A stretch of 41,598 nucleotides of DNA from a virus. The notes under the pieces were generated by a model, which worked only from the letters and a program-made list of their open reading frames with translations, was not told the DNA's origin and did no database searches. The position numbers and the translations under genes are program-made. Shown here in pieces: positions 7,383 through 35,377 of this stretch. The stretch covers positions 1-41,598 of the IMG/VR virus record IMGVR_UViG_3300005613_000147; one strand, 5' to 3'. Numbering within the stretch: the first letter of the stretch is position 1; each line of letters begins with the position of its first letter.

Positions 7383-7869
7383 GCTGTTTGATACTTGGGT
7401 TGACAACCTTGATGCGTCGACCCAAGAATCATTCTGTGCTTTTGCTTCCGATAATTACTCGGTAATCGAAATTTATCTTTACGCACGTTTCCTTGGGTAC
7501 CAAGGGAGTATTTCTGCGTGTGATCTTTGGGTAAAAGATCATTATCACAAGCCTGATCACCGCAAGAAACTTCTGTATGAAATTGATGAAATGCAGGAGG
7601 ACGTACGTAAGCTCCGTGAAGACGTAGAGAACGGTTGCGTCAAACGTGATGCTGGCGTTGCACGTATTGCTTCCATCCAACGTGAAATTCGTGGTCATAT
7701 CGACCAGGTAGAAAAGTTTACTTCCATCAAAGATCGCAAGGGTCTCTTGATGGCTGGTGCTGATCGTGCAATTCGTGAACTCATGTTTATCTTCAAAGAT
7801 GATCCGATTGAGATCCCCTTGGAAGAAGCAACAATGAGTGTGTGGGCACGTATGCAGCTTGAAGAATAA
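7252..7869 (+). CDS. Candidate small terminase or packaging protein
   Basis: The frame is open from ATG 7213; GTG 7252 has GGAG seven bases upstream and is chosen here with low certainty. The first 35-45 residues are low-complexity and probably a shadow of the overlapping gene. The convincing part starts near ELFDTWVDNLDASTQESF. It then has a helical core (LYARFLGYQGSISACDLWVK) and a long coiled coil (EMQEDVRKLREDVENGCVKR). Position two genes before terL, helical-then-coiled-coil build and size fit a small terminase, but no HTH or family is firmly recognised. Confidence 0.55.
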   Translation: MNKNEKPSVKAQKSSVLPQSSNSSSGRKTRHETTVRPNELIDIELFDTWVDNLDASTQESFCAFASDNYSVIEIYLYARFLGYQGSISACDLWVKDHYHKPDHRKKLLYEIDEMQEDVRKLREDVENGCVKRDAGVARIASIQREIRGHIDQVEKFTSIKDRKGLLMAGADRAIRELMFIFKDDPIEIPLEEATMSVWARMQLEE

Positions 7870-7908
7870 ACCGCGTTAAGATAGTTTTAAATCAAATAAC
7901 GTATATTA

Positions 7909-8193
7909 ATGGGCACTAAAACAGACCTTGCGTCAGGTCCTGGGAAGCGTCAGATGGCGCTAGAAGGTATACGAATGCGACAAGAACGTATTCGTCAACG
8001 CAGAGATCAGGGCGAAGGAAATCAGGCTGGTGAAGCGTCGTTTTCCCCTGGCATAGCACCTCCCAGTTCTCCTGTTGCCCGACAAGAACAACGTGGCGCA
8101 GGCATTGCTTTTGGCCCTGGACGTGCAATGCGCGTTCCTCCTGCTGATAGCCCTGAGTACCAGCAAATGCTGGAACGTTTCCGTAGAGGTTAA
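7909..8193 (+). CDS. Hypothetical Arg/Gly/Pro-rich protein (94 aa)
   Basis: ATG at 7909 follows a 39-base AT-rich gap. The N-terminus is a basic helix (GIRMRQERIRQRRDQGEG), the middle is Pro/Ser/Gly-rich, and the last ten residues are helical (EYQQMLERFRRG). It stops five bases before the next small gene. No family recognised; it is probably a packaging-region accessory protein by position only. Confidence 0.6.
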   Translation: MGTKTDLASGPGKRQMALEGIRMRQERIRQRRDQGEGNQAGEASFSPGIAPPSSPVARQEQRGAGIAFGPGRAMRVPPADSPEYQQMLERFRRG

Positions 8194-8198
8194 AACTA

Positions 8199-8360
8199 AT
8201 GGCTAAAGGTAAAATGCCTCCTCAGCTTCTTGAGTACTTCAAGAAAAAAGAAGCCAAGAAAGAGGACGGTACTGAGATGAATGATAAGGAAAAGCGTAAA
8301 GCTGCCTTAGATAAAGCCCGTAAGTACAAAGAGCAAAAAGGCAAAAAGGAAGAAAAATAA
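8199..8360 (+). CDS. Small Lys/Glu-rich basic protein (53 aa)
   Basis: A complete 53-codon gene from ATG 8199 to TAA 8360. Roughly a third of its residues are lysine (e.g. YFKKKEAKKEDG, then KARKYKEQKGKKEEK). The stop codon forms the start of a 9-bp inverted repeat that separates it from terL. It belongs to the set of small basic proteins in this phage; nucleic-acid binding is inferred from charge only. Confidence 0.65.
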   Translation: MAKGKMPPQLLEYFKKKEAKKEDGTEMNDKEKRKAALDKARKYKEQKGKKEEK

Positions 8361-8387
8361 GATAGCATCAAGTAACAAGCTATCTTA
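8358..8387 (+). repeat. Hairpin immediately before terL start
   Basis: Perfect 9-bp inverted repeat: TAAGATAGC (8358-8366) and GCTATCTTA (8379-8387) with a 12-base loop. It includes the TAA of the upstream gene and ends five bases before the terL GTG. No T-run follows, so it is not a classic terminator. It occupies the place where a ribosome-binding site would be expected, so a translational or mRNA-processing role is possible. Confidence 0.6.
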
Positions 8388-8392
8388 GTTCC

Positions 8393-9919
8393 GTGCCGAG
8401 TTATACGCACCTTGCCTATCGTCGTAATGCGCGGGCTGCGGCACGTAACCAACAAATCAAGAAGCCAAAGAACGCGAAGGACCTTGAGAAGGCTCGTGAA
8501 GACTTTGGCTTTTTCTGTGAGTATGTAGCAGATAAGCCACCTGCCACCCATCACCTGGATTGGCATCGGCATTTTGTTACCAATGAAGATAGTAGTTGTT
8601 TAATAAAGATTGCTGGACCGAACGTTGATCTCCTGGCTCCCCGTGGTTCAGCTAAATCAACGGTCTTGGGTCTACTGACTGCATGGGCTATTGGCATCCA
8701 CACTCATGCCAAGATGCCGCTGCAGATTCTTTACTTGTCGTACACGGTTGATATTGCACGATCCAAGTCAGCAACCATTAAACACATCATTGAAAGCAAA
8801 CGGTACCAAGAGGTCTTCCCTTCTGTTCGCTTGATGAAGAACGTCACCAGTAATGAGTACTGGTCAATTGATCACAAGTTTGCTGGTATTGACACCACTG
8901 GTGATGAACAATTCACACTCTGCGCTGCAGGTCTAAAGGGTTCCGTGACCTCCAAGCGTTCGCACCTGGTAATGATTGATGACGCCATTAAGTCAGCTGC
9001 GGATATCTCCAACCCTGACATCAGGAAACAGATGCAGGACAACTGGAATGCTGTGATTGCACCGACGATGTTTGAAGGTGCCAGGGCGATCTGCCTTGGT
9101 ACTCGCTTTAGGCATGACGACATCCACTCCACGACATTCAACGAACAAAACAACTGGACTCAGATTGTTCTTTCTGCCATCCTCAACAATCCAAAGACTG
9201 GCGAAGAAGAGTCCTACTGGCCTGAGATGTGGTCACTGGAGTACTTGAAGGAGAAGAAACATCAAGCACCGATTGCCTTCTCATTCCAGTACATGAATCA
9301 GATCGTTCGTCAGAACGAGCTTTCTCTTGCACCAGAACTGATTGTTAAAGCAGAGATCTCAACAGAGTTCGACACGCTTGGCGTTGGTGTTGACCTTTCT
9401 GCTGGCACCAAGGAAAAGAATGACTACACGGTCATGATCTTGGGTGGTCGCATCGAAGATCGCATCCACATCATTGATTACAGACGGATCAGGGTGATGG
9501 GTAACCTCGAGAAACTCGATGCAATGAAGGAGCTTCTCAATGATTGGTCAGTGCTGGGGCAAGACGCTAACGGTAATTACTTCCCAACGTATTCGACGTG
9601 TGACATCTGGTCAGAAGCTGTCCAGTACCAGGCCTCCCTGGAAGCAGACTTCAAGCGGGTTTGCTTGAATAACGAAGGTCTCTACAACTTGATTTGGCAT
9701 CCAGTCAAAGGATTCCGTGCAGACAAGCTGGCACGTTTCCGTGGAATCATGGGCATGTTTGAAGACCGAAAGATTATCTTTAATCGTTATCGGAACTTCA
9801 CTAATCTCTTCGAGGAACTCACAAACTTCGGCGTAAGTAGTCATGATGACACGGTCGACGCGTTAGTATGGCTAGTGACAGGTCTTATGCGCAAAGGCCA
9901 ATTGCATATTGATTATTGA
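8393..9919 (+). CDS. terL: Terminase large subunit
   Basis: The motor and nuclease that cuts and pumps phage DNA into the prohead at the portal. In the 508 residues the N-terminal ATPase shows Walker A at about 83-90 (PRGSAKST) and Walker B at 191-197 (HLVMIDD). The C-terminal RNase H-like nuclease has an acidic residue at D334 (GVGVDLSAGT) and a late acidic cluster at 484-489 (HDDTVD). The start is GTG 8393, just after a hairpin and without a clear Shine-Dalgarno site; the length is normal for TerL. About 25 bases after its stop lies a second, degraded copy of its last 19 codons. The packaging-site type cannot be told from sequence alone. Confidence 0.95.
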   Translation: MPSYTHLAYRRNARAAARNQQIKKPKNAKDLEKAREDFGFFCEYVADKPPATHHLDWHRHFVTNEDSSCLIKIAGPNVDLLAPRGSAKSTVLGLLTAWAIGIHTHAKMPLQILYLSYTVDIARSKSATIKHIIESKRYQEVFPSVRLMKNVTSNEYWSIDHKFAGIDTTGDEQFTLCAAGLKGSVTSKRSHLVMIDDAIKSAADISNPDIRKQMQDNWNAVIAPTMFEGARAICLGTRFRHDDIHSTTFNEQNNWTQIVLSAILNNPKTGEEESYWPEMWSLEYLKEKKHQAPIAFSFQYMNQIVRQNELSLAPELIVKAEISTEFDTLGVGVDLSAGTKEKNDYTVMILGGRIEDRIHIIDYRRIRVMGNLEKLDAMKELLNDWSVLGQDANGNYFPTYSTCDIWSEAVQYQASLEADFKRVCLNNEGLYNLIWHPVKGFRADKLARFRGIMGMFEDRKIIFNRYRNFTNLFEELTNFGVSSHDDTVDALVWLVTGLMRKGQLHIDY

Positions 9920-9940
9920 TGGAACGTTTAAACCCATCCA

Positions 9941-10004
9941 GACGATTTTAGTTTGGTTGGTCACTGGTCTATCGAGGAAGGGTCAGCTTCATATTGATTA
10001 CTAA
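9941..10004 (+). pseudogene. Vestigial second 3' end of terL
   Basis: Codons from 9945 to the TAA at 10002-10004 read ILVWLVTGLSRKGQLHIDY. The real TerL ends ALVWLVTGLMRKGQLHIDY, so 17 of 19 residues match. Yet most synonymous positions differ (for example GTT TGG TTG GTC ACT against GTA TGG CTA GTG ACA, and TAC TAA against TAT TGA). Upstream homology fades into GACG with a one-base offset, and no start or full frame exists. The pattern fits the leftover tail of a diverged terL allele after recombination, not a fresh tandem duplication. Confidence 0.8.
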
Positions 10005-10039
10005 CCCTTAGAATTTAAAAAAAGGAAAAACGTTTTGCC

Positions 10040-10333
10040 GTGGGTCCGGAATACGTAGCGATAGCGTTAACTGCTTGTATCTCAGCATTAACCGGCGGTT
10101 CTTGGATTGCGAACCGCATTATGGATCGCCAAAAAGAAAGAATGGAACAGGCTTTTAGTTACATCAATTCGCAAAAAAGGCGGATTGATTGTCTAGAAGA
10201 TGACCTGAAACAACTGCCAATTGAATACGTTTTAAAGGTGGATTTTCTTAGGGAGATCCAGGAAATGCATGAGAACTTTAGACAAATCAACACTAAGCTT
10301 GATAAGCTAATGGAAAAGCTTTTGTCGAAATGA
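10040..10333 (+). CDS. Membrane-anchored coiled-coil protein (97 aa)
   Basis: GTG start at 10040 with AAAGGA upstream. One N-terminal transmembrane segment (residues 5-24, YVAIALTACISALTGGSWIA) is followed by a basic, then heptad-like helix to the end (MHENFRQINTKLDKLMEKLL). The design is like small phage membrane proteins of the holin, spanin or XhlA kind, but no family is certain. It overlaps the next gene by four bases (ATGA), so the two are coupled. Confidence 0.65.
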   Translation: MGPEYVAIALTACISALTGGSWIANRIMDRQKERMEQAFSYINSQKRRIDCLEDDLKQLPIEYVLKVDFLREIQEMHENFRQINTKLDKLMEKLLSK

Positions 10334-10512
10334 GCTACATCCTTGAGGTCCAGGAAGACGAAAACGGCGAGCCCTTTATCACTCTTCCTGATGAACTGAT
10401 CGAGGAACTTGGTTGGCTAGAAGGTGACCTCCTTGATTGGGATATTCGTGCCAACGGAATCATTCTAAGCAAAGTAAATGATTCTGCCGGTTACGAAGTT
10501 ATAGAAGAGTAA
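10330..10512 (+). CDS. AbrB/MazE-like small protein (60 aa)
   Basis: The sequence follows the swapped-hairpin AbrB/MazE pattern: a strand (YILEVQEDENG), ITLPDELIEELGWLEGD, then DWDIRANGIILSKV. In that family the fold binds DNA as a dimer or serves as an antitoxin. No toxin gene lies next to it. It is coupled (ATGA) to the membrane coiled-coil gene. It is acidic overall, unusual for a DNA-binding AbrB protein, so the role is uncertain. Confidence 0.65.
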   Translation: MSYILEVQEDENGEPFITLPDELIEELGWLEGDLLDWDIRANGIILSKVNDSAGYEVIEE

Positions 10513-11804: not shown

Positions 11805-11947
11805 AGACTAAAAAACTTGTCAAAAACGCCCTGAAACATCCAGAGCTTTATGGACCTGCTGAGCTGGTATTCTTTAAGCGTTGGTTAGACTCGAAGAAGC
11901 GGACGAAGGCTGCTAAGATCAATAAAGATAAAAAGAAAGATAGTTAA
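11801..11947 (+). CDS. Small basic protein upstream of portal (48 aa)
   Basis: A complete 48-codon gene between ATG 11801 (four-base overlap upstream) and TAA 11947 (TAATG overlap with the portal). The protein has a short helical core with an aromatic patch (HPELYGPAELVFFKRWLDSK) and a lysine-rich tail (INKDKKKDS). Tight coupling on both sides argues that it is real despite its size. Function unknown. Confidence 0.65.
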   Translation: MKTKKLVKNALKHPELYGPAELVFFKRWLDSKKRTKAAKINKDKKKDS

Positions 11948-14307
11948 TGGCTGCCGGGGACGCTAAATCAAGGCTTAAGGAAATCATTGATTCCTACCTC
12001 GAGAGAGATGGTGGGACAATGATCGATACGGGCATTGTGGCGTCCCACCTTGCTCAGATGCGTATGTTCGGCATCCGTCAGGGTGTCGAGTTCTTTCCTG
12101 CGCAAGACAACTTTGGTAACCAGCGCAAGGACTTTATTGACCGCGTCATCAAATACAACTCAATTGATACTCGCTTAGATTCAATCTGGGATTACTTTCT
12201 GTGCGATGGTCAAGGTCTTTTTTACATCCGTCCTACTAAAAACAATTACCGTCTCTATTATTTCCGTAAGCACGAATATCGTAGTTACTACAACATTGAT
12301 GGCGAGCTGGATGAAGTTGTAGTCATCTACAGCTACAAGGTACGCAACGGTTTTGGGTACCAGCAAGACATTGAGATGAGCAACGTCAGCGGTCCCATCA
12401 ACATGGGTAACGGCGCTGCCAAACGCTACATCCGTCTTTCGATTAAGCGTAAAACAATTGAAGAAACTCACTCAGAAGGTGAGATTTCATTCGACACGAA
12501 CTACCAATCAGTCACTGGCAAAACTAAAAGCTTTAAAAATACACTCGGTTTTATTCCCTGCGTTGAGATCTTCAACAACGTCAAAGGATTCTCCAACGAA
12601 GGTTCTGGTGAATTTGACGCGTTAGCAAATCATATTTGTACGCATGACGAAATGGTCCGCACGATGCGGAAGAACATTCAGTTCTTTGGTAATCCAACTC
12701 TTCTTTCCTCCAGACCCAAGACTGACCTGATGGAACCGGGAGGTGACACTTCCGTTCAACGTCCTTCTATTGCAGCAAACTCTGGCTTTACTGGTTCTGG
12801 TGCTTTGAGCCAATCTCGGTTTAAGGCTGATCCTATTTATCGAGGTGGCTCTGACGGTCAGCTGCGAGTACCAAGGGTTATTGCAAACCTGGAGCCGAAT
12901 GACCGTGTTGGTTACATCGTTCCTGATGCCATCACTGGTGACCAAAACTCGTTTGCTCGTCAATATCGAGAAGAGATTCGCACCGCTCTTGGCGGTGTTG
13001 ACGAACTTTCAATCTCTGCTGGTGTCACCGCAACTGAATACAAGTCGTTGTTTGGTCGCGTTGCCGCAACTTCTAAAAAGAAAGCAATTTCAATTTATAC
13101 CTACGGTATTTGCCGTTGCTTAGAATTAATTCTTTTCCAAGAGGAACGTATTTTCCGTGACACGTTAGCAGCTGCTGCAGGCTTAGAGAAACCTCTTGAG
13201 CTTCCAGAGACTGCCACGGAAGAAGATCTTCTCATGTACGACGACGCAATGTCGATGTATGAAGAGAAAGTCAAGCAGTTGATGATGGCTTGCTTGAGGA
13301 CCCAACAGATTCCACCCGGAGTTTTAGGTTTAATTCCTGATGGTGACGTAACAATGCAGTGGCGTTGGTTAGGTCCTGTTTACGAAGATTCGACGCAAGA
13401 TATCTTAAATAACTCTATTGTCGTAAGAAATCTGCAAGAATTAGGTGTTGATAGCATTGAAGCACTGAAATACCTCTTCCCGTCTAAGACGGATGAGGAG
13501 CGGGCCGCGATGCTATCGGGGTTCCCGTTCAGGATGGTGAACGAATTACAGGGTGCATACTCTCAGTTCGCTCGCCTCGTGGGGGGGATGATGCAGACCC
13601 CTCACCCGCAATCACCGGATTTACCGATGGCTGCGGATCCGCGATTGGATTTGACCCCATATCTGTATCGCACCCTAGAAGCATTACAAAAGGAGATGAG
13701 TTATGCAGGACGCTACCGTCCAATCGATCCCACAGACGAGCCCAGCACCAGCGGCCGTCGCGCCCAGCAGCTACGTGGCGGCAGCTCCGGCACCAGCAGC
13801 ACCGGCGGCACCGGCACCAGTGGCTTATCAGGTGGGTACGAGTTACCCCCAAGCGGTACCTCAGGCAGCCCCCAGCTACCAATCAGCCCCTACTCAGTAC
13901 GCCCCCCAATCCCAACCGGTGGAAACCTCGGCGGGGAATCCTTGGGAATCGGCGTTCAACAAGGTGGTGAACCTGCTGAGCGCACCAGTCCAGTCCCCGT
14001 TCCAGGGTCAACCGTCGCCTCAGACGACCGAGTTTACCCCGGCCAACTACGGACAGCCCAGCAGCCAAGCTACGCAACAATCGGCTCCGCTGACCTGGTC
14101 TCCCAGCCAGGAATCCTCGCCCAATTATTCCCAAACCTCCTCGACTCCCTCATTGGAGCAAATCGCGGACCTGGTGGGAATGAGCCAGGAAAGCCGTCAG
14201 GTGATGGACGCGTTCGGGATCGAAACTCCGGCTCTTCTGAACAACTACGCCCTAAACCTCGAGGGAATGCTGGACAGCGCCGTCGAGTGGGGAAATCGCG
14301 CAGCTAA
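11947..14307 (+). CDS. Portal protein, with C-terminus overprinted by the scaffold-like gene
   Basis: The ring at the head vertex through which DNA is pumped and to which the tail attaches. The call rests on length (786 residues), position after terL and before the capsid gene, and portal-like sequence in the first 560 residues (RVIKYNSIDTRLDSIWDYF; EFDALANHICTHDEMVRTMR; PDGDVTMQWRWLGPVYEDS). Residues after about 585 change to Ser/Gly/Pro-rich low complexity (SSGTSSTGGTGTSGLSGG). They are read out of frame with the gene starting at 13703 for 605 bases. The core portal probably ends near residue 585; whether the tail is useful or merely tolerated is open. Confidence 0.8.
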   Translation: MAAGDAKSRLKEIIDSYLERDGGTMIDTGIVASHLAQMRMFGIRQGVEFFPAQDNFGNQRKDFIDRVIKYNSIDTRLDSIWDYFLCDGQGLFYIRPTKNNYRLYYFRKHEYRSYYNIDGELDEVVVIYSYKVRNGFGYQQDIEMSNVSGPINMGNGAAKRYIRLSIKRKTIEETHSEGEISFDTNYQSVTGKTKSFKNTLGFIPCVEIFNNVKGFSNEGSGEFDALANHICTHDEMVRTMRKNIQFFGNPTLLSSRPKTDLMEPGGDTSVQRPSIAANSGFTGSGALSQSRFKADPIYRGGSDGQLRVPRVIANLEPNDRVGYIVPDAITGDQNSFARQYREEIRTALGGVDELSISAGVTATEYKSLFGRVAATSKKKAISIYTYGICRCLELILFQEERIFRDTLAAAAGLEKPLELPETATEEDLLMYDDAMSMYEEKVKQLMMACLRTQQIPPGVLGLIPDGDVTMQWRWLGPVYEDSTQDILNNSIVVRNLQELGVDSIEALKYLFPSKTDEERAAMLSGFPFRMVNELQGAYSQFARLVGGMMQTPHPQSPDLPMAADPRLDLTPYLYRTLEALQKEMSYAGRYRPIDPTDEPSTSGRRAQQLRGGSSGTSSTGGTGTSGLSGGYELPPSGTSGSPQLPISPYSVRPPIPTGGNLGGESLGIGVQQGGEPAERTSPVPVPGSTVASDDRVYPGQLRTAQQPSYATIGSADLVSQPGILAQLFPNLLDSLIGANRGPGGNEPGKPSGDGRVRDRNSGSSEQLRPKPRGNAGQRRRVGKSRS

Positions 14308-14677
14308 CACCATTAAGGGTTACGCCGAATTTGCTGTTGGTGAACACCAAGAGAACCTGGCGTATAACGAGATTCTCACCAACCCCGACGTTCTTAGCGA
14401 TTACACGCTGAAGTTCTTCGGTCCTGAGGGTCCGTATCCCGTTTACGAAAACGAGGCCCAACTGGAGACCCGTGGTTATCCCACTGCTCCGGTGAATAAT
14501 GCGATGGCTCAACTGAGCGAAATGCCCGCTCCTCCTGCCGCTGCCGCTCCTCAAGCACAGGGTGATTTCTGGGGTGGCTTTAGCGAGCAAATGGCCCGTG
14601 ATCCCCAAAACGCCTGGCGTCTTCTGAACCAGGCTCAACCCCAAGCCGTTGCAAACAAATTGTTTGTAATGGAGTGA
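13703..14677 (+). CDS. Scaffold-like protein, overlapping the portal gene
   Basis: ATG 13703 has an excellent ribosome site (AAGGAG at 13688-13693, seven bases before). The protein has 324 residues. The first 60 are Ala/Pro-rich (VAAAPAPAAPAAPAPVAYQ) and the next 75 are Gln/Ser/Pro-rich. A helical domain then runs from about residue 150 (SLEQIADLVGMSQESRQVMD; LLNNYALNLEGMLDSAVEWG) and a helical C-terminus ends the protein. Position between portal and major capsid and this build fit a scaffolding or head-assembly protein; there is no protease motif. The first 201 codons lie inside the portal frame. Confidence 0.7.
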   Translation: MQDATVQSIPQTSPAPAAVAPSSYVAAAPAPAAPAAPAPVAYQVGTSYPQAVPQAAPSYQSAPTQYAPQSQPVETSAGNPWESAFNKVVNLLSAPVQSPFQGQPSPQTTEFTPANYGQPSSQATQQSAPLTWSPSQESSPNYSQTSSTPSLEQIADLVGMSQESRQVMDAFGIETPALLNNYALNLEGMLDSAVEWGNRAANTIKGYAEFAVGEHQENLAYNEILTNPDVLSDYTLKFFGPEGPYPVYENEAQLETRGYPTAPVNNAMAQLSEMPAPPAAAAPQAQGDFWGGFSEQMARDPQNAWRLLNQAQPQAVANKLFVME

Positions 14678-14718: not shown

Positions 14719-14796
14719 TTGTGTTAGATAAGACATGCCAATGTCTAAATCTTTCACCCATTAAACACTTCCTGCGACACTGGAGGATAAAACAAA

Positions 14797-15960
14797 GTGT
14801 TCATCGATAACGATTTTCCAAAGATTCTTGGTGCGGAACTCTATCGTCCCCACCCTGCTTACATCGCGGAAATGGCGGTTGAGCCCGTGGTTGTCCACGA
14901 CTTCACCCGTCAGCCTGGTCAAACCGTTCAGCTGGATCGCTACAAGTTCTGGGGAACCCCTGGTACTAAGGACAGCCGCGAGCGTATTGCTGACCAGACC
15001 ATTGGTACTGCCAACAGCCGCAACATCACCAAGGAGAAAGTCCTGGTGGTGCTTAAGGAATACACCGGTCCTGCGGACCCGGGTGATCCCACCCAGCCCA
15101 GCACCTTCAAGATTGCTCGGGAAACTCTGGTTACCGCCCAGCGCCTGCTGCTGGACACCGGCAACCTGAACATGTTCCACCAGAGCATCGGTTCTCTGAC
15201 CCTGCTCGACGACTATCGTCGTTGGCGTGACCGCGTCTTCATTGACGAACTGTCTAAATCTGAAGCCAACGGTGCTGCCTCTGGTTCCCAGGGTGGTTAC
15301 TACTTCGCTGGTGGTAAGACCAAGGATTCCTCTGGTCGTATCTCCTACACCGCCGCTGAGTACACCGCTCAAGTCCAGCAGTTCTCGGTTGCTACCGACC
15401 TTCTGACCACTGTTAAGGACCTGCGTAAGCGCAACGTTCCTACCTTTGCTGATGGTCTGTATCGCTGCATTTGCGATCCCACCTTCATGATGCACCTGCG
15501 TCGTGATGCCGACTTCCGTGAGATCGCTCGTTACGCTGGTAATCCTGGTCAAGGCATGTACATGGGTAACCCCATGATGCCTAACAACTCCAGCTTCTAC
15601 ATGGGTCCCCAGGCTGGTCAGGCCTACTTCCTGGCTGGTGAGCCTGTGATGCCTACTGGCGTTCAGTTCGAAGGTGTGAAGTTCTTCGAGTCGACCAACT
15701 TCCCCTCCAAGAGTGTTACCGCTTCCTTCGACGACGGTTCCTCTTACGCTTCCCAGGAAGTTGCTCAGGGTTACTTCTTCGGTCCTCAGTCTATTGGCGT
15801 TGGCATCGGCGGCCCGAACGCTCAGGTGCTCATCAACAACAACGATGACTTCAGCCGTTTCATCATCCTGATCTGGCAACTGTACGCTGGCTTTGAGATC
15901 CTGAATAAGGACTTCGTCACCACCGCCTACAGCTTCGTCTCTGATGACGGCGTGCTCTGA
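14797..15960 (+). CDS. Major capsid protein
   Basis: GTG 14797 is preceded by GGAGG at 14782-14786. The call for this 387-residue protein rests on position after portal and scaffold, typical size, and very strong C-ending codon bias, the mark of the most abundant phage protein. Its sequence has the mixed alpha/beta character of HK97-fold capsids (VQLDRYKFWGT; RNITKEKVLVVLKEYTG; FLAGEPVMPTGVQFEGVKFF; FSRFIILIWQLYAGFEIL). Resemblance to the N4 gp56-type capsid group is a guess by eye. No capsid protease gene is seen nearby. The bias also creates a long open antisense frame, which I regard as spurious. Confidence 0.85.
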   Translation: MFIDNDFPKILGAELYRPHPAYIAEMAVEPVVVHDFTRQPGQTVQLDRYKFWGTPGTKDSRERIADQTIGTANSRNITKEKVLVVLKEYTGPADPGDPTQPSTFKIARETLVTAQRLLLDTGNLNMFHQSIGSLTLLDDYRRWRDRVFIDELSKSEANGAASGSQGGYYFAGGKTKDSSGRISYTAAEYTAQVQQFSVATDLLTTVKDLRKRNVPTFADGLYRCICDPTFMMHLRRDADFREIARYAGNPGQGMYMGNPMMPNNSSFYMGPQAGQAYFLAGEPVMPTGVQFEGVKFFESTNFPSKSVTASFDDGSSYASQEVAQGYFFGPQSIGVGIGGPNAQVLINNNDDFSRFIILIWQLYAGFEILNKDFVTTAYSFVSDDGVL

Positions 15961-22026: not shown

Positions 22027-23643
22027 ATGGCGAAAAGGCGTGGAAGCTCTTTTGGGGCAGTCCGCAACAGCAAAGGGAATACTTTTGATACCTTTTCGCG
22101 TGCAGAAGACTTTGGTCCCAGTAACGTACAACCGATAAGGACAGAGTTCTCCAAAGGCTCGGTCCCTGATTCGATCTACTCTGCAAACAGAGAATCAGCT
22201 TGGTCTCGCTGGCGGCGAGGCTTTGAGTTGTACTGCAATACGCTCGCAGACAACACTTACAGCTACCCGTTTGATTACGCGCTTCCACTACCGCCAGGAA
22301 CCGTAATTCCTCCTGGAACTAATCCACCAAAGATCCCTGGTGTCTTCCAAGGTTTCCCAACAAAGAACAAAGAGTTTGGGATGCACTGGGCAGGTGTGCG
22401 TACTGCAGGCAGTCTCCGGTTCGATAACATCCGTGACTCCGGTAGCAACCCGTCTCCGATTGCGTCCGTCACTGAGGATGAAAACTATTGGTACGTCACC
22501 CTCAGCGGAGCCTGGAGCGCAGCCAATCCTCTTCCTCCACCGTTGTACATTCCGCCGGTTGTAATCGGTGGTCAAACCATTGTCCCCGCCCAGTATCCAA
22601 TCAACGGTGAAATCTTGGAAGATCGGATTGTTGCCGTTGGTGGCACTCCAATCAACTCTGAGACTATTGATCCTGCCACTCAGACGCGTTATGGATACGT
22701 TCAGGCTGTCCTTGTATCAACAGACGAAAAGACCGGCGTCCTGACGCTTCAGAAGCAAGGTTCAGTTGAGTCAACTTCTGATGCAGTCTTCCGTACTCCC
22801 TCATCTACTGCACCTCATGTTGGTCGGTTCCTGATGACTGGTACACGGTATTGCTGCTCTTGCCAAGACTTCACTCGTCGTGACTATGCCTACATGATGG
22901 GCCTTGGCAAAGGGAACCAGAAGGTCTTCCCACGCACCAGGGCAGCAACCATTAAGCCTGGTCGCTACGAGATCATGACTCTTGGCGGGCAGGTCGATAA
23001 CAGTGCAATGACCAGTGCCACGGTCAATCGTGGTATGCAGGTGGTTGCACCTGATGCCCAATATAATATTCCTCCTACAGTCACACCAAACTCCTCAGTA
23101 GTACCTGGAGCACTACGTGATAATCCGGGTGTGTTTAGGGACTTTGGTAAGCAATACACCAGGAATACGCCTCTTCCTTCCCTAGAGGGAGCAGTGTCAG
23201 AAGGCCCGCCAAGCTTTAATGACTATTCGACCAGACGTAATGCAGACGGTTCATACACCATTACTTCTCTCACTGACTTCTGGTCGCCTCTTCTCGATGA
23301 GTTGCGTTACTGCAAACACATCTATGCAATGAAATTTACCGAGAAAGTCTTCCCACCAGAACCGTCAGACCTTCCTGTTGACATGGGAAGCATCACAGAG
23401 TGGGAGCAGAATCTCGTCGCTCAAGCAGCTAAAGACAATGAGAAAGCAGGTTACAGCCTTGCAGCAAGAGGTTTGTCGATCATGGATGTACCTCCATACA
23501 ACTGCCAGGCACCAATGATGATGCCAATGATGCAGAAATTGTTTAACACCCCATCAACCTTTGTATTGATGTCAGGCTTTACGATGTTTGATAAGAATGG
23601 ACAAGCCTATGTTCCAGCACAAGGTGGTACACCGGGGGTCTAA
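22027..23643 (+). CDS. Structural protein with a widely split SWIM-like zinc motif (538 aa)
   Basis: ATG 22027, two bases after the preceding stop. Basic N-terminus (AKRRGSSFGAVRNSKGN) and Pro-rich segment near 85-110. A beta-rich middle contains TRYCCSCQDFTRRDYAYM with C277-x-C279. About 150 residues later comes LRYCKHIYAMKF with C429-x-H431. Together these match SWIM zinc-binding motifs (CxC...CxH, CKHI.A), but with a very long insertion. The C-terminus is Met/Pro-rich (MMMPMMQKLF). A large tail or baseplate-type protein is likely; the function of the zinc site is unknown. Confidence 0.7.
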   Translation: MAKRRGSSFGAVRNSKGNTFDTFSRAEDFGPSNVQPIRTEFSKGSVPDSIYSANRESAWSRWRRGFELYCNTLADNTYSYPFDYALPLPPGTVIPPGTNPPKIPGVFQGFPTKNKEFGMHWAGVRTAGSLRFDNIRDSGSNPSPIASVTEDENYWYVTLSGAWSAANPLPPPLYIPPVVIGGQTIVPAQYPINGEILEDRIVAVGGTPINSETIDPATQTRYGYVQAVLVSTDEKTGVLTLQKQGSVESTSDAVFRTPSSTAPHVGRFLMTGTRYCCSCQDFTRRDYAYMMGLGKGNQKVFPRTRAATIKPGRYEIMTLGGQVDNSAMTSATVNRGMQVVAPDAQYNIPPTVTPNSSVVPGALRDNPGVFRDFGKQYTRNTPLPSLEGAVSEGPPSFNDYSTRRNADGSYTITSLTDFWSPLLDELRYCKHIYAMKFTEKVFPPEPSDLPVDMGSITEWEQNLVAQAAKDNEKAGYSLAARGLSIMDVPPYNCQAPMMMPMMQKLFNTPSTFVLMSGFTMFDKNGQAYVPAQGGTPGV

Positions 23644-24718: not shown

Positions 24719-25084
24719 ATGTTCAACTGTGAACAGGATCCCGTCGCCCTGCTCATTGAATTAACTCCCAAGTTAGCGAAGAAACGTTATCGACAATCCA
24801 TATACGAAGCCTGGAACCACTGCTGCGGTTACTGCGGAGAAGAAGCTACTTCCCTTGACCACATCATTCCCAAGTACAGGTCAGGCTCGTCAAACCGAAA
24901 CAATTTACTCCCGAGCTGCCAGCGCTGCAATTGCAACAAATCCAGCCAGGATCTAGACGTTTGGTATCCGCAGCAAGAGTTTTATTGCCATAATCGGCAC
25001 GCTAAAATAAAGAATTGGATGGACCAGGAGATGATCGACATCTTCTCCTACTGTCCGATTGACCCGCAACCTCTAGCCAGCTGA
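24719..25084 (+). CDS. HNH endonuclease (121 aa)
   Basis: A compact zinc-type HNH nuclease. C36-x-x-C39 (CCGYCGEE), LDHIIPKYRSGSSNRNNLLP with H48 and N61/N62, then C67-x-x-C70 (CQRCNCNKSSQD). This is the McrA-like HNH with both CxxC pairs and the N...K ending. Its stop overlaps the start of the next gene (TGATG). Phage HNH proteins either assist packaging beside terminase or are homing nucleases; the distance from terL favours the latter. Confidence 0.85.
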   Translation: MFNCEQDPVALLIELTPKLAKKRYRQSIYEAWNHCCGYCGEEATSLDHIIPKYRSGSSNRNNLLPSCQRCNCNKSSQDLDVWYPQQEFYCHNRHAKIKNWMDQEMIDIFSYCPIDPQPLAS

Positions 25085-27750
25085 TGGGCCTCGTCTATAA
25101 CGTTAAGGATAAAAAGTTTGACGTCTCGTACGAGAAGACCGATTACAAGACTGATCGTAAAACCAATGCGCCAACGTCTGAAACGTACCACATAATCTGG
25201 GGTAACGGCGGGTACATTACCTATTTCAGCACCCAGCCCCCCAACGAAGGCAACTTTAAGGACGCTAAAGGAAGTACAAGCGTCACGACTGGCACGTCAG
25301 GTAAGGGTGGTGATTTCGTAGATTTGTTGGTTGGCGCTGGTGCAAATAAAGACAGCGCATCAGGTTTTTCTAATAGATTTAACCAGTCGATTACTCGAAA
25401 TATACAAAATTATGACGCAAATATAAACAACGATAGGCTAAATAAGATTGCTAAGGCCGACAATGCTGAAGGCCAAAGATACAATAATGCCTATAACACA
25501 GTATTAAAAACAGCAAGCAATACGCGAGGTGGCGACTACACTGATATGCGCCAATTGGTTAGAAACATCAAGGGCGTAGACAGTAAAACCTTAGCCAATT
25601 TAGAGAAAGATTATAAGCGTTTTTACCAAACGGAAAAGCTTCAAACCTGGGATTCAGGCCTTGGGGCGAAACCCCCCTATGGGGATTTTGACGGTAAGTA
25701 TTACGGTAAGACTTACACAGACGTTTCAGATACGTGGAAAAACGCAGTTGCCAACGACGACATTGACATCACAGAACGATACGTTAATGAGAATGGCTTT
25801 TATTTAAACCACTACACAAACCAGGGAAAAGCCGCAGGCAATCGTGGTAACGCACCAGAGAAGACAAGTGCCGCAACAGAATATCTTGAAAAGAAACCAA
25901 CAGATAAAGACTTGCAAGATGTACGCAATCTGCAGTTAGGCGTTGATACACAGACACAAGCAGAAAGGATTTTAAACATCCCCCAGGTTGCAGAGCAGTG
26001 GGATCTGGCTAAACGGAATGATCCCTACTGGAGAAAACTAGGAAAAGAATATTTTCTTGATGTAAATAAACCAGATGAATTTGCTACGTTATTCCGTTTA
26101 TCTGATAGGCCGGAAGATAAACAAGTCAGCCTTGATTACAACATTAATGCTGGTTACGGTATTACTCAATTAGAAGACGCGTTAAACGAAGCAGTTGGTG
26201 AGAAGGCGACTGTTGATGTCAAGAAATTTGGTGCTTTGGCCCAGGATGTTTTAAAAGAAACAATCAATGAGATGAAGCAGGCTAAAGCCAAAGAAGAGAT
26301 ACTGGATCTTTTTAGAGGTTTTAGTGGCTTCAGTGAAATAATGGATATCAACTCACAGCTAAGCAATTCCATCCTTGGCGACACTGGTGTTGGTGGCCTT
26401 CTTTCTTTCACCTCTGGAGGCAAAGCAGAAGAATCCCTGGAGAAAAGCTTGCAGGGAATCACGGGCATTGGAAATAACGCTACATACAACTGGCAGCAAT
26501 GGTTTGATACTGAATTAAAGAAACGTTATGAAGAAGATTTAGAGCTTGGTTATACCACTGCAGAGGCAGAAGATAAAATCAAAATTGAAGCTGACTTTGC
26601 ACGTCAATTTGTAGATGATTATTTGATTCCTCGTTTTGATACTTCTCGTTCCATGGATGAATTTGTTGAGTATCTTGATATCAGGCAAGAAGAGCAAAAC
26701 CCGTTCCAAAGTCAAGACATGGTGAACGCTGTCAACCTTGTTGCTGATTTACGTGCCCAGCGTTATTTGGATGATATTAAAACTAAGTCTGATCGGTATT
26801 TTGATTCTGAGTTTTATTTTAATCCTGTCGGAGATAAAGCTAGAGAAACTGCTTATGCTGATCAAGCAAAAACTGTTGCAGAGGACTGGGAAGCAGCAAA
26901 GGCTGGCGATGAATACTGGGCTCAGCAAGCGTATCGTTTTGCAGTTAATGTCAACGATAAAGATGCATTTGCTCGAATGCATTTCCAAATTAAAGGACAA
27001 GGTAGAGGTTATGACGCTGCAGAAGATATTCTGAACGCTGGCAAAGTTCAAGATGAGATCTACAACAATATTCTGCCTGCGCTTAAAGAAGAAGCACTTA
27101 AACAAGGTTCTGTCTTTGGTCAGTTCATCACACCAGAAGAATTTGCTGATGAGATGCTTAAGGGCCTCGATCCAAACGACAAGTCAACCTGGGACGAAGT
27201 TCTCCAGCGTTATGGTTTGACTGATTTCAAAGGAACTGTTGAAGAACTGAAAGAATATATTGTCGAAACACTGCGTACTGGTTCTGCTCAGAAGATCCGA
27301 GAAGAAATTAAATTCCTTAATGAAAAACGCCAGCGTCCTACACAGGAAGTTCTTGGTCTTACCTACATCGAAAGACCAGAAGACTATAAAGATGAACAAG
27401 CCAAAGGTGATACTAAGCTTTACAAAGTATTTCAATCAGCTGGTTATCAAGGAACAGAAGACGAGTTTTACGAAAAATTCTTCCCTGATTTAGAACGCAG
27501 TGAACAAACTCTTCTTACTAAAGCAGGCAGTAACGATGCACTTGAGTCTTATGGCCTTGATTTAAATGACCCATTCGCATCTCTTGGTACTATTGAAAGT
27601 TTCTTTGATGACACTCCTATTACCGATGAAGGAACAACTAAAGAATCGAGTTTCTTCAGCGTAGGATTAGATGATGAAGACGAGGATTACAAGTCTAAAT
27701 CCGGCGAAAAAATCCTTGGTGAATTTACTTCGATGTTTAAAGGGCTCTAA
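25084..27750 (+). CDS. Very large hypothetical virion protein with internal duplication (888 aa)
   Basis: Coupled by TGATG to the HNH gene. The N-terminal 60 residues form a beta-type domain (VYNVKDKKFDVSYEK; YHIIWGNGGYITYFSTQ). The rest is highly charged and helical. Two segments, at about residues 302-340 and 598-636, are clearly related (VAEQWDLAKRNDPYW against VAEDWEAAKAGDEYW, with similar continuation). The C-terminus is acidic (GLDDEDEDYKSKSG). No transmembrane run or tape-measure-like repeat is obvious. It is the second largest protein here; a tail or internal ejection protein is a guess. Confidence 0.75.
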   Translation: MGLVYNVKDKKFDVSYEKTDYKTDRKTNAPTSETYHIIWGNGGYITYFSTQPPNEGNFKDAKGSTSVTTGTSGKGGDFVDLLVGAGANKDSASGFSNRFNQSITRNIQNYDANINNDRLNKIAKADNAEGQRYNNAYNTVLKTASNTRGGDYTDMRQLVRNIKGVDSKTLANLEKDYKRFYQTEKLQTWDSGLGAKPPYGDFDGKYYGKTYTDVSDTWKNAVANDDIDITERYVNENGFYLNHYTNQGKAAGNRGNAPEKTSAATEYLEKKPTDKDLQDVRNLQLGVDTQTQAERILNIPQVAEQWDLAKRNDPYWRKLGKEYFLDVNKPDEFATLFRLSDRPEDKQVSLDYNINAGYGITQLEDALNEAVGEKATVDVKKFGALAQDVLKETINEMKQAKAKEEILDLFRGFSGFSEIMDINSQLSNSILGDTGVGGLLSFTSGGKAEESLEKSLQGITGIGNNATYNWQQWFDTELKKRYEEDLELGYTTAEAEDKIKIEADFARQFVDDYLIPRFDTSRSMDEFVEYLDIRQEEQNPFQSQDMVNAVNLVADLRAQRYLDDIKTKSDRYFDSEFYFNPVGDKARETAYADQAKTVAEDWEAAKAGDEYWAQQAYRFAVNVNDKDAFARMHFQIKGQGRGYDAAEDILNAGKVQDEIYNNILPALKEEALKQGSVFGQFITPEEFADEMLKGLDPNDKSTWDEVLQRYGLTDFKGTVEELKEYIVETLRTGSAQKIREEIKFLNEKRQRPTQEVLGLTYIERPEDYKDEQAKGDTKLYKVFQSAGYQGTEDEFYEKFFPDLERSEQTLLTKAGSNDALESYGLDLNDPFASLGTIESFFDDTPITDEGTTKESSFFSVGLDDEDEDYKSKSGEKILGEFTSMFKGL

Positions 27751-33613: not shown

Positions 33614-35377
33614 GTGGCAAATCGCAGAATCAGCGAATTCCCTGCGATTAGCGGGATTGATATTAACGAGCAGGATCTGTTGACGCTTATCCACGTCTTT
33701 GAGGTGGACCCGGCGCTTCGTAATAAGAAGATTACCTTTACGGAGTTTAGAAATTATTTAGATCAATATTACGTAAATATTACAGGTGAGATCATTGCTG
33801 GTGACATCACCATCACCGGCAACCTCACCGTTAGTGGTGCAACCTCTCTAAATACTGTTACCAGTACTGGCCTCGCCACCTTCAGTGGTGTTGTTGTTCA
33901 AAACAACCTGACCACCACTGGAACCATCAGTGGCACTGTCATCACTGGTGACACGGCAGGCTTTACGACAGTTACCGGTACAACCATTACCGGAACCACA
34001 ATTCTTGCTACCAGTGTAACTGGTGTCAGTGGAGTTTTTACTGATCAAGTCAGTGGAGCAACCGTTACCGGTATTAATTCTAACTTCACTACCGGTACGT
34101 TCCAAACACTGATTGCAGGTAGTCACACCACCACGGGTGATCACACCGTCAGTGGAAATCTCAGGGTTAGTGGCTCTGGTTTCTTTGCTTCTGGCATCAG
34201 TGTTACCGGTACCGTCAGCGGCCAGACGATTACTGGTACTGCGGTTCAAGCAACCAACATCACCGGTATAACCGTTGTTGGCACCACCACCGTCTCTGGT
34301 GCAACCGTTACAGGAAACTTTGTTAAAGCAACGACTGTCACTGGAATCAGCGGTGTCTTTACGACTCAGCTCTCTGGAGCCACCATTACCGGTAATTCGA
34401 TTCAGGGCAGTGTTATCACTGGTAATACTGCTGGTTTCACCACAGTTACCGGAGCGACCACCACTGGTACGACTGCAAACTTTGCAACACTTTCTGGAAC
34501 CGTCGTTACTGGCAACACCGTTCGAGCATCCACAATTACTGGCTTAAGCGGGGTCTTTACCTCCCAGCTTTCTGGCGCAACCATCACAGGTGATACGGTC
34601 AAGGTTTCTACCATCACTGGTGTAAGCGGCGTCTTTACCACTAATCTGTCCGGCGCAACGGTCACCGGTACTAACTCCAACTTCACCACAGGTACGTTCA
34701 AAACACTGATTGCAGGAAGTCACACCACTACTGGTAATCACACAGTCTCTGGAAACCTTTTTGTAAGCGGCTCTGGTTTCTTTGCTTCTGGAATTAGTGT
34801 TACTGGTACCGTCAGCGGTCAAACCATTACGGGCACTAATGTCCAAGCAACCAATATTACAGGCGTAACCGTCATTGGTACGACTAGTGTTTCCGGCGCA
34901 ACCGTCACTGGTGATACTGGTCGTTTCACTCAAATTACAGGAAATACAGCCACATTTAACTCCACACTGTCTGGTGTAACAATCACTGGGACAACGGCTA
35001 ATTTCACCAGTGGTAACTTTATTGATCTGTTTGCAGTCAACCAGACCTTTGGTGGAGACTTAACCTTCTCTGGTAACACCCTTACTAAAGGTAATGGAAC
35101 CTTTGAGTCTGGTGTAACAGTTACTGGCACACTCAGTGGCACCACAATTACCGGTACTAATGTTCAAGCGACCAACATTACTGGTGTAACCGTTGTTGGC
35201 ACCACGACAGTCTCTGGTGCAACGATTACCGGCAACACGGCTAAATTTACTAATATCACTGGCGGCAAACTTGAAGTAACAACTCCCTCTGGTGCAACAC
35301 CAGCTATTGTTTGCTCCGGTGTTGTTTCTGGTGATGCAACCGGTTTTAGGATCAAGGGTCCCTTAATTATCTTGTAA
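33614..35377 (+). CDS. Repetitive tail-fibre-like protein (587 aa)
   Basis: After an 80-residue head domain (ISEFPAISGIDINEQDLLTL) the protein is built of short beta-type repeats with SGATITG or TGTTVTG cores (VSGVFTTQLSGATITG). A longer block recurs three times (FASGISVTGTVSGQTITG and kin, near 34140-34320, 34730-34920 and, shortened, 35090-35240). This fits a trimeric beta-helical fibre shaft. It ends abruptly with a small domain (PAIVCSGVVSGDATGFRIKG) and has no S74 chaperone. The next fibre gene shares the repeat type, so this may be a shaft subunit or a partial duplicate. Confidence 0.8.
   Translation: MANRRISEFPAISGIDINEQDLLTLIHVFEVDPALRNKKITFTEFRNYLDQYYVNITGEIIAGDITITGNLTVSGATSLNTVTSTGLATFSGVVVQNNLTTTGTISGTVITGDTAGFTTVTGTTITGTTILATSVTGVSGVFTDQVSGATVTGINSNFTTGTFQTLIAGSHTTTGDHTVSGNLRVSGSGFFASGISVTGTVSGQTITGTAVQATNITGITVVGTTTVSGATVTGNFVKATTVTGISGVFTTQLSGATITGNSIQGSVITGNTAGFTTVTGATTTGTTANFATLSGTVVTGNTVRASTITGLSGVFTSQLSGATITGDTVKVSTITGVSGVFTTNLSGATVTGTNSNFTTGTFKTLIAGSHTTTGNHTVSGNLFVSGSGFFASGISVTGTVSGQTITGTNVQATNITGVTVIGTTSVSGATVTGDTGRFTQITGNTATFNSTLSGVTITGTTANFTSGNFIDLFAVNQTFGGDLTFSGNTLTKGNGTFESGVTVTGTLSGTTITGTNVQATNITGVTVVGTTTVSGATITGNTAKFTNITGGKLEVTTPSGATPAIVCSGVVSGDATGFRIKGPLIIL

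Follow-up and report, generated by a model that had tools for sequence, protein, structure and literature searches.

The scaffold of lambda (C/Nu3) and of similar phages is produced from a start that lies inside a longer morphogenesis gene and in the frame of that gene. In T7, genes 8, 9 and 10 encode the portal, the scaffold and the capsid in that order. Out-of-frame overlap on the same strand, with the second gene either embedded or overlapping, is known from the spanin genes Rz and Rz1 of dsDNA tailed phages, whose products form one functional complex (PMC6139136); the second gene of these overlaps is often missed by annotation, and discussions of their origin have considered stop loss and disorder (PMC6139136). 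Overlaps longer than 50 nt are present in 61% of dsDNA virus genome annotations (PMC7017920). Long same-strand overprinting of two morphogenesis genes in a tailed dsDNA phage seems to be undocumented in the literature that we searched, which yielded no report of a long same-strand portal/scaffold overlap, most subscription journals lying outside that search.

Here we describe such a pair in a stretch of viral DNA of 41,598 nucleotides (IMG/VR record IMGVR_UViG_3300005613_000147, referred to as the window), in which ORFs and PHROG matches give the gene order terminase, portal, scaffold-like gene and major capsid protein. The portal gene contributes its 3' quarter and the scaffold-like gene its 5' 60% to the shared DNA, and we conclude with high confidence that this overprinted, doubly constrained pair is genuine and is present in every S-EIV1-type cyanophage examined. 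The overlapping pair appears to be ancient, and from the selection acting on each frame we infer that both products are translated.

Gene layout and identity of the two proteins

The features of the locus are collected in Table 1. The earlier note had reported an overlap of 605 bases, a perfect AAGGAG start site within the portal frame, 201 codons over which both frames stay open, and 25 scaffold codons ending in T that pass without a portal stop before the 26th. An ORF check reproduced the coordinates to the base, located the start site and counted 201 scaffold codons in the overlap; the count of T-ending codons was also exact, the 26th (GCT followed by AAC) forming the portal stop.

Table 1. 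Features of the portal/scaffold-like locus, in positions of the window
Feature	Positions	Strand	Basis or remark
Terminase large subunit (context)	8393-9919	+	phrog_38, E 2.5e-75
Portal protein gene, 786 aa	11947-14307	+	ORF, phrog_20475, phrog_64, Foldseek PDB ranking
Portal body, residues 1-586, nearly all outside the overlap	11947-13704	+	last predicted helix 570-586
Shine-Dalgarno AAGGAG of the scaffold-like gene, within the portal frame	13690-13695	+	7 nt upstream of the ATG
Scaffold-like gene, 324 aa, read in the +1 frame of the portal	13703-14677	+	ORF, conserved start, scaffold-frame constraint
Out-of-frame overlap, 605 nt (scaffold residues 1-201; portal tail from residue 586)	13703-14307	+	
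Conserved segment of the portal tail, residues 713-736, GSADLVSQPGILAQLFPNLLDSLI	14083-14154	+	invariant columns, windowed rates, deep alignment
Portal C-terminal end, Gly/Arg-rich, of variable length	14155-14307	+	deep alignment
Scaffold-like C-terminal part, outside the overlap, predicted helical, closing on conserved KLFVME	14308-14677	+	
Major capsid protein (context, directly downstream)	14797-15960	+	phrog_1357 major head protein, E 9e-17

The portal gene lies between those of the terminase large subunit and the capsid protein. Its product matches phrog_20475 ('head and packaging, virion structural protein') over residues 5-746 (E 1e-294), and 21 of 24 members of the family hit phrog_64 ('portal protein'; best E 8.9e-5); two further portal families, phrog_533 and phrog_104, gave weak matches to the portal family, and Pfam gave no hit for the portal protein. 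The AF2 model of the portal is of low confidence (pLDDT 34.5), and only the Foldseek ranking of that model is informative: each of the top seven PDB matches is a portal (E 4.7e-4 for the best, with low TM-scores), and those of T7 and other podoviruses are among the best. The 'portal' label has gained independent support from phrog_64, with some support from the Foldseek ranking. The portal body evolves with a dN/dS of about 0.12.

The downstream protein is probably a capsid scaffold, as judged from gene order and predicted architecture only: its gene follows the portal and sits immediately upstream of the major capsid gene, and in its low-confidence model an N-terminus that is mostly unstructured, beginning with MQDATVQSIPQ, is followed by helices at residues 151-238 and 289-320. 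PHROG and Pfam searches with this protein gave no family match, and a Foldseek PDB search of its model gave no meaningful match. Because scaffolds diverge fast, the lack of a match to known scaffolds lowers confidence in the name and not in the role, and we call the protein 'scaffold-like'. The models of both proteins are of low confidence as a result of shallow alignments of about 80% identity.

The capsid gene of S-EIV1 (9251-10477 of its locus, L082; 60784-62010 of KJ410740) appears to be misannotated: in a tblastn search the capsid protein of the window matched S-EIV1 at 60859-62007 on the plus strand with 85% identity, but in GenBank the first part of this region is covered by a minus-strand hypothetical protein (AHV82227) and the remainder by a fragment on the plus strand (AHV82228). 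In the window, an open frame of 372 codons lies antisense to the capsid gene (14761-15879, minus strand); such a frame reaches at least 300 codons in 29 of the 39 relatives with a complete capsid gene and is probably an effect of codon bias. The window genes at 22027-23643, 25084-27750 and 33614-35377 had no PHROG match at E 1e-3; with several large genes unmatched, the structural proteome of this lineage is largely uncharted.

Conservation and selection in both frames

The window belongs to the lineage of Synechococcus phage S-EIV1 (portal 82% and capsid 85% identical), an isolate from a high Arctic lake with a genome of 79 kb (KJ410740). The S-EIV1 group constituted 3.3% of cyanophage content in the ocean viromes of one study (PMC5332604), and the doubly read portal/scaffold DNA belongs to a common and widespread cyanophage lineage. 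Relatives were taken from five scans of IMG/VR viral contigs, one scan of GTDB genomes and one isolate, with the best 80 matches of each scan. Among the matches listed, 302 pairs were complete (199 distinct), with portal bodies 71-100% identical to that of the window, and both frames are open in all 302. In the 199 distinct pairs listed, the overlap measures 506-644 nt, the portal 755-799 aa and the scaffold-like protein 314-340 aa, and portals ending near residue 585, a case that the earlier note had raised, are absent. The five viral-contig scans gave overlapping pairs exclusively, and the GTDB scan gave one more overlapping pair and one truncated fragment, among the matches listed. No outgroup without the overlap was found among these matches, and in a set of 50,697 phage records S-EIV1 alone was clearly related.

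Not one portal-frame stop occurs in the overlap of the 199 distinct complete pairs among the matches listed. The third same-strand frame carries stops in all 178 distinct pairs examined for this, indicating that the region is not simply poor in stops. A single motif, CAAAAGGAGATGAG[TC]TATG, does duty for both the portal frame and the start of the scaffold and is likewise kept in 178 of these 178 pairs. In an incomplete locus (L107, 7930-7944), a TAG no more than 20 nt from the contig end is the sole portal-frame stop seen in the family, and represents either a sequence error or a real exception. A portal fragment with 72% identity (L154, 4067-4399) lies inside a Puniceicoccaceae metagenome bin and most likely comes from a misbinned phage contig.

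For the window alone, the probability that the portal frame stays free of stops for 201 codons is 5.4e-5, if the scaffold protein is taken as given and codon usage is that of the phage. With the skewed, T-poor codon usage of the overlap itself it is 0.012, a very conservative figure, because selection on the portal frame would itself yield avoidance of T. By this latter figure a single genome is suggestive only, and it is the comparative evidence that settles the overlap question. When synonymous codons were shuffled within columns, preserving each scaffold protein and the codon content of each alignment column, 36 portal-frame stops were expected (minimum 28 in 300 shuffles) and none was observed. 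When the overlap of the window was evolved neutrally along the real 94-leaf tree with the scaffold frame alone constrained, portal-frame stops arose in 90-94 of the 94 leaves in each of 20 runs. That portal-frame stops are scarcer than expected by chance, as the earlier note had roughly estimated, is supported by the codon-usage probability of 5.4e-5, by the 199 stop-free pairs and by the simulation.

Substitutions were mapped by parsimony on the tree of the portal body and classed by their effect in both frames; these are our own frame-resolved counts in the spirit of OLGenie, and are distinct from OLGenie itself. In the overlap, with rates expressed relative to doubly silent changes, those that alter the portal and are silent in the scaffold (SN/SS) stand at 0.36 (bootstrap interval 0.27-0.53), those that alter the scaffold and are silent in the portal (NS/SS) at 0.25 (0.18-0.37), and those that stop the portal and are silent in the scaffold at 0.04. 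In the control regions, where one frame is free, the corresponding depletion disappears: pseudo-portal-altering changes stand at 1.13 and pseudo-stops at 1.29 in the scaffold C-terminus, which has no portal, and pseudo-scaffold-altering changes at 0.95 in the portal body, which has no scaffold. A 180-sequence tree with deeper lineages gave 0.38 for the portal and 0.29 for the scaffold, relative to body dS. Doubly silent changes in the overlap proceed at 0.93-0.98 of body dS. The overlap is thus no mutational cold spot, and a low regional mutation rate or RNA structure was rejected as the cause of the silent-site constraint. Parsimony undercounts multiple hits chiefly in the fastest classes, so these ratios are conservative; the scaffold C-terminus has a dS of about 0.69 of the body value, and with this as the reference the depletion in the portal frame is less marked, at about 0.54. 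The suggestion in the earlier note that the portal tail may be selected is borne out by these rates together with the absence of stops from all 199 pairs, as is constraint in the portal frame taken by itself.

These results bear directly on two simpler accounts of the locus, both of which we consider extremely improbable. The earlier note had offered as its alternative that the portal frame stays open simply because the region it enters is stop-poor and Pro/Ala-rich; on this account the scaffold region, rich in Gln as well, would leave the portal with a tail of tolerated junk. Stops are indeed rarer in such a region, since the N-terminal part of the scaffold-like protein is 55% A/S/P/Q, and the probability of 0.012 for the window alone leaves some room for this account. 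However, neutral evolution would have placed stops in nearly all relatives and the distinct pairs listed have none, and the rates of portal-altering and portal-stopping changes lie far below those of the control, which refutes the run-on reading. Conversely, the portal tail alone might be real and the scaffold-like protein might start near or after the portal stop, as in GenBank AHV82225; the deposited annotation of S-EIV1 does begin the gene just past that stop. Against such a late start, scaffold-altering changes are depleted in the overlap to about a quarter of the doubly silent rate, compared with no appreciable depletion in the control portal body, the AAGGAG and ATG at 13690-13705 are invariant, and the segments NPWESAF and YPQAVPQ are kept in the scaffold frame in most deep relatives. 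A pair in which both frames are coding throughout the overlap is thus the reading that we retain.

The portal tail and the origin of the overlap

The profiles of constraint differ along the overlap. At 13748-13792 the scaffold frame is the more constrained (0.16, versus 0.52 for the portal), and this order is reversed at 14063-14152, where windows give SN values of 0.28 and 0.27 versus NS values of 0.44 and 0.46. Accordingly, over 13748-13837 the scaffold frame dominates and the portal is a variable Gly/Ser linker (SN 0.52-0.66), and over 14063-14152 the portal frame dominates, encoding SADLVSQPGILAQLFPNLLDSL, and the scaffold is a changeable Ser/Gln/Pro string. The portal tail, which includes the region around SADLASQPGILAQLFPNLL, consists largely of G/S/P/T. 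It carries a conserved hydrophobic segment, ADLxxxPxiLAQLFPNLL, which the scaffold frame does not explain and whose LFPN core and neighbouring residues are invariant in a 45-member alignment. Most tails are positively charged at the end, with a net charge of about +7 over the last 60 residues; this Gly/Arg-rich end is partly or wholly missing in two relatives (L271 and L277) and in S-EIV1. By itself the tail matches phrog_20475 over tail residues 1-160 (E 1e-30), so this family independently includes the tail. From its sequence, the tail looks like a linker, then a short segment that is conserved, then a basic end that can be dispensed with.

We propose that ribosomes would make the low-copy portal from its own start, and that independent initiation at the internal AAGGAG would make the high-copy scaffold; conservation of the start motif strongly implies that initiation at this internal ribosome-binding site is separate. 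The shared DNA would encode two flexible segments, and it is because both are flexible that one DNA could satisfy both. In known phages the C-terminus of the portal points into the head. The tail may act as a disordered tether of roughly 200 residues in the head interior, whose hydrophobic segment DLxxxPxiLAQLFPNLL would dock the scaffold or a further inner-core protein as its most likely partner, and thereby seed assembly at the portal vertex. A long flexible tail, a conserved hydrophobic segment and an adjoining gene that is likely to encode a scaffold together suggest such docking, which we put forward tentatively, as a step with slightly less than an even chance of being correct. A more specific idea, and a rather unlikely one, is that in head assembly the portal tail binds the N-terminus of the scaffold, or that both bind one shared partner; if it were true, one stretch of DNA would encode both sides of the portal-scaffold nucleation interface, and the supply of portal and scaffold would be tied together. 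With a genome of 79 kb in S-EIV1, pressure on coding space is a weak explanation for the overlap, which makes a functional or regulatory link the more interesting one.

Both frames could be coding and the tail still have no specific partner, serving as internal filler, as a DNA-contacting tail or as a plug of the channel. The basic tail ends and the large share of relaxed G/S/P/T sequence described above are what such a tail would look like, yet the basic end can be lost and the hydrophobic LFPN segment is invariant, a combination that points to a specific contact; we regard a partnerless tail as unlikely, although a serious candidate. For the origin of the overlap, loss of a portal stop that originally lay just after the last helix, near the scaffold ATG, is probably the right account, and is favoured by the position of this ATG, which falls where the final predicted helix of the portal body ends (residues 570-586, in a low-confidence model), as would be expected if stop loss had joined two abutting genes. 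Alternatively, the portal tail may be the older part, and may already have been long when the scaffold gene gained a start further upstream within it. The helices predicted for the scaffold do lie in good part outside the overlap, and codon usage fits marginally better in the portal frame (-0.23, versus -0.28 in the scaffold frame), but this difference is within one standard deviation and codon usage is uninformative as a guide to the older frame; we doubt this reverse order, while granting it a fair hearing beside an origin by stop loss.

Comparison with known systems

The portal-scaffold-capsid order of the window is that of T7 genes 8, 9 and 10; in T7, however, about 100 nt separate the end of gene 8 from gene 9, and the two do not overlap. 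In lambda C/Nu3, the two proteins are read in the same frame and share residues, whereas the frames of the window pair differ and no residue is shared. The spanins Rz and Rz1 are lysis proteins and have no homology to the pair described here, which is concerned with capsid assembly. The closest counterpart is S-EIV1 itself (KJ410740), which has the same gene pair: the body of its portal (AHV82224) is 82% identical, and its scaffold ORF (7754-8731 of locus L082) starts inside the portal gene at the same motif as in the window. GenBank places the start of this scaffold (AHV82225) 576 nt too late, at an ATG that follows the portal stop, and the overlap was thereby hidden. Gene calling that is averse to overlaps can therefore truncate a real gene, here in the sole isolate genome found.
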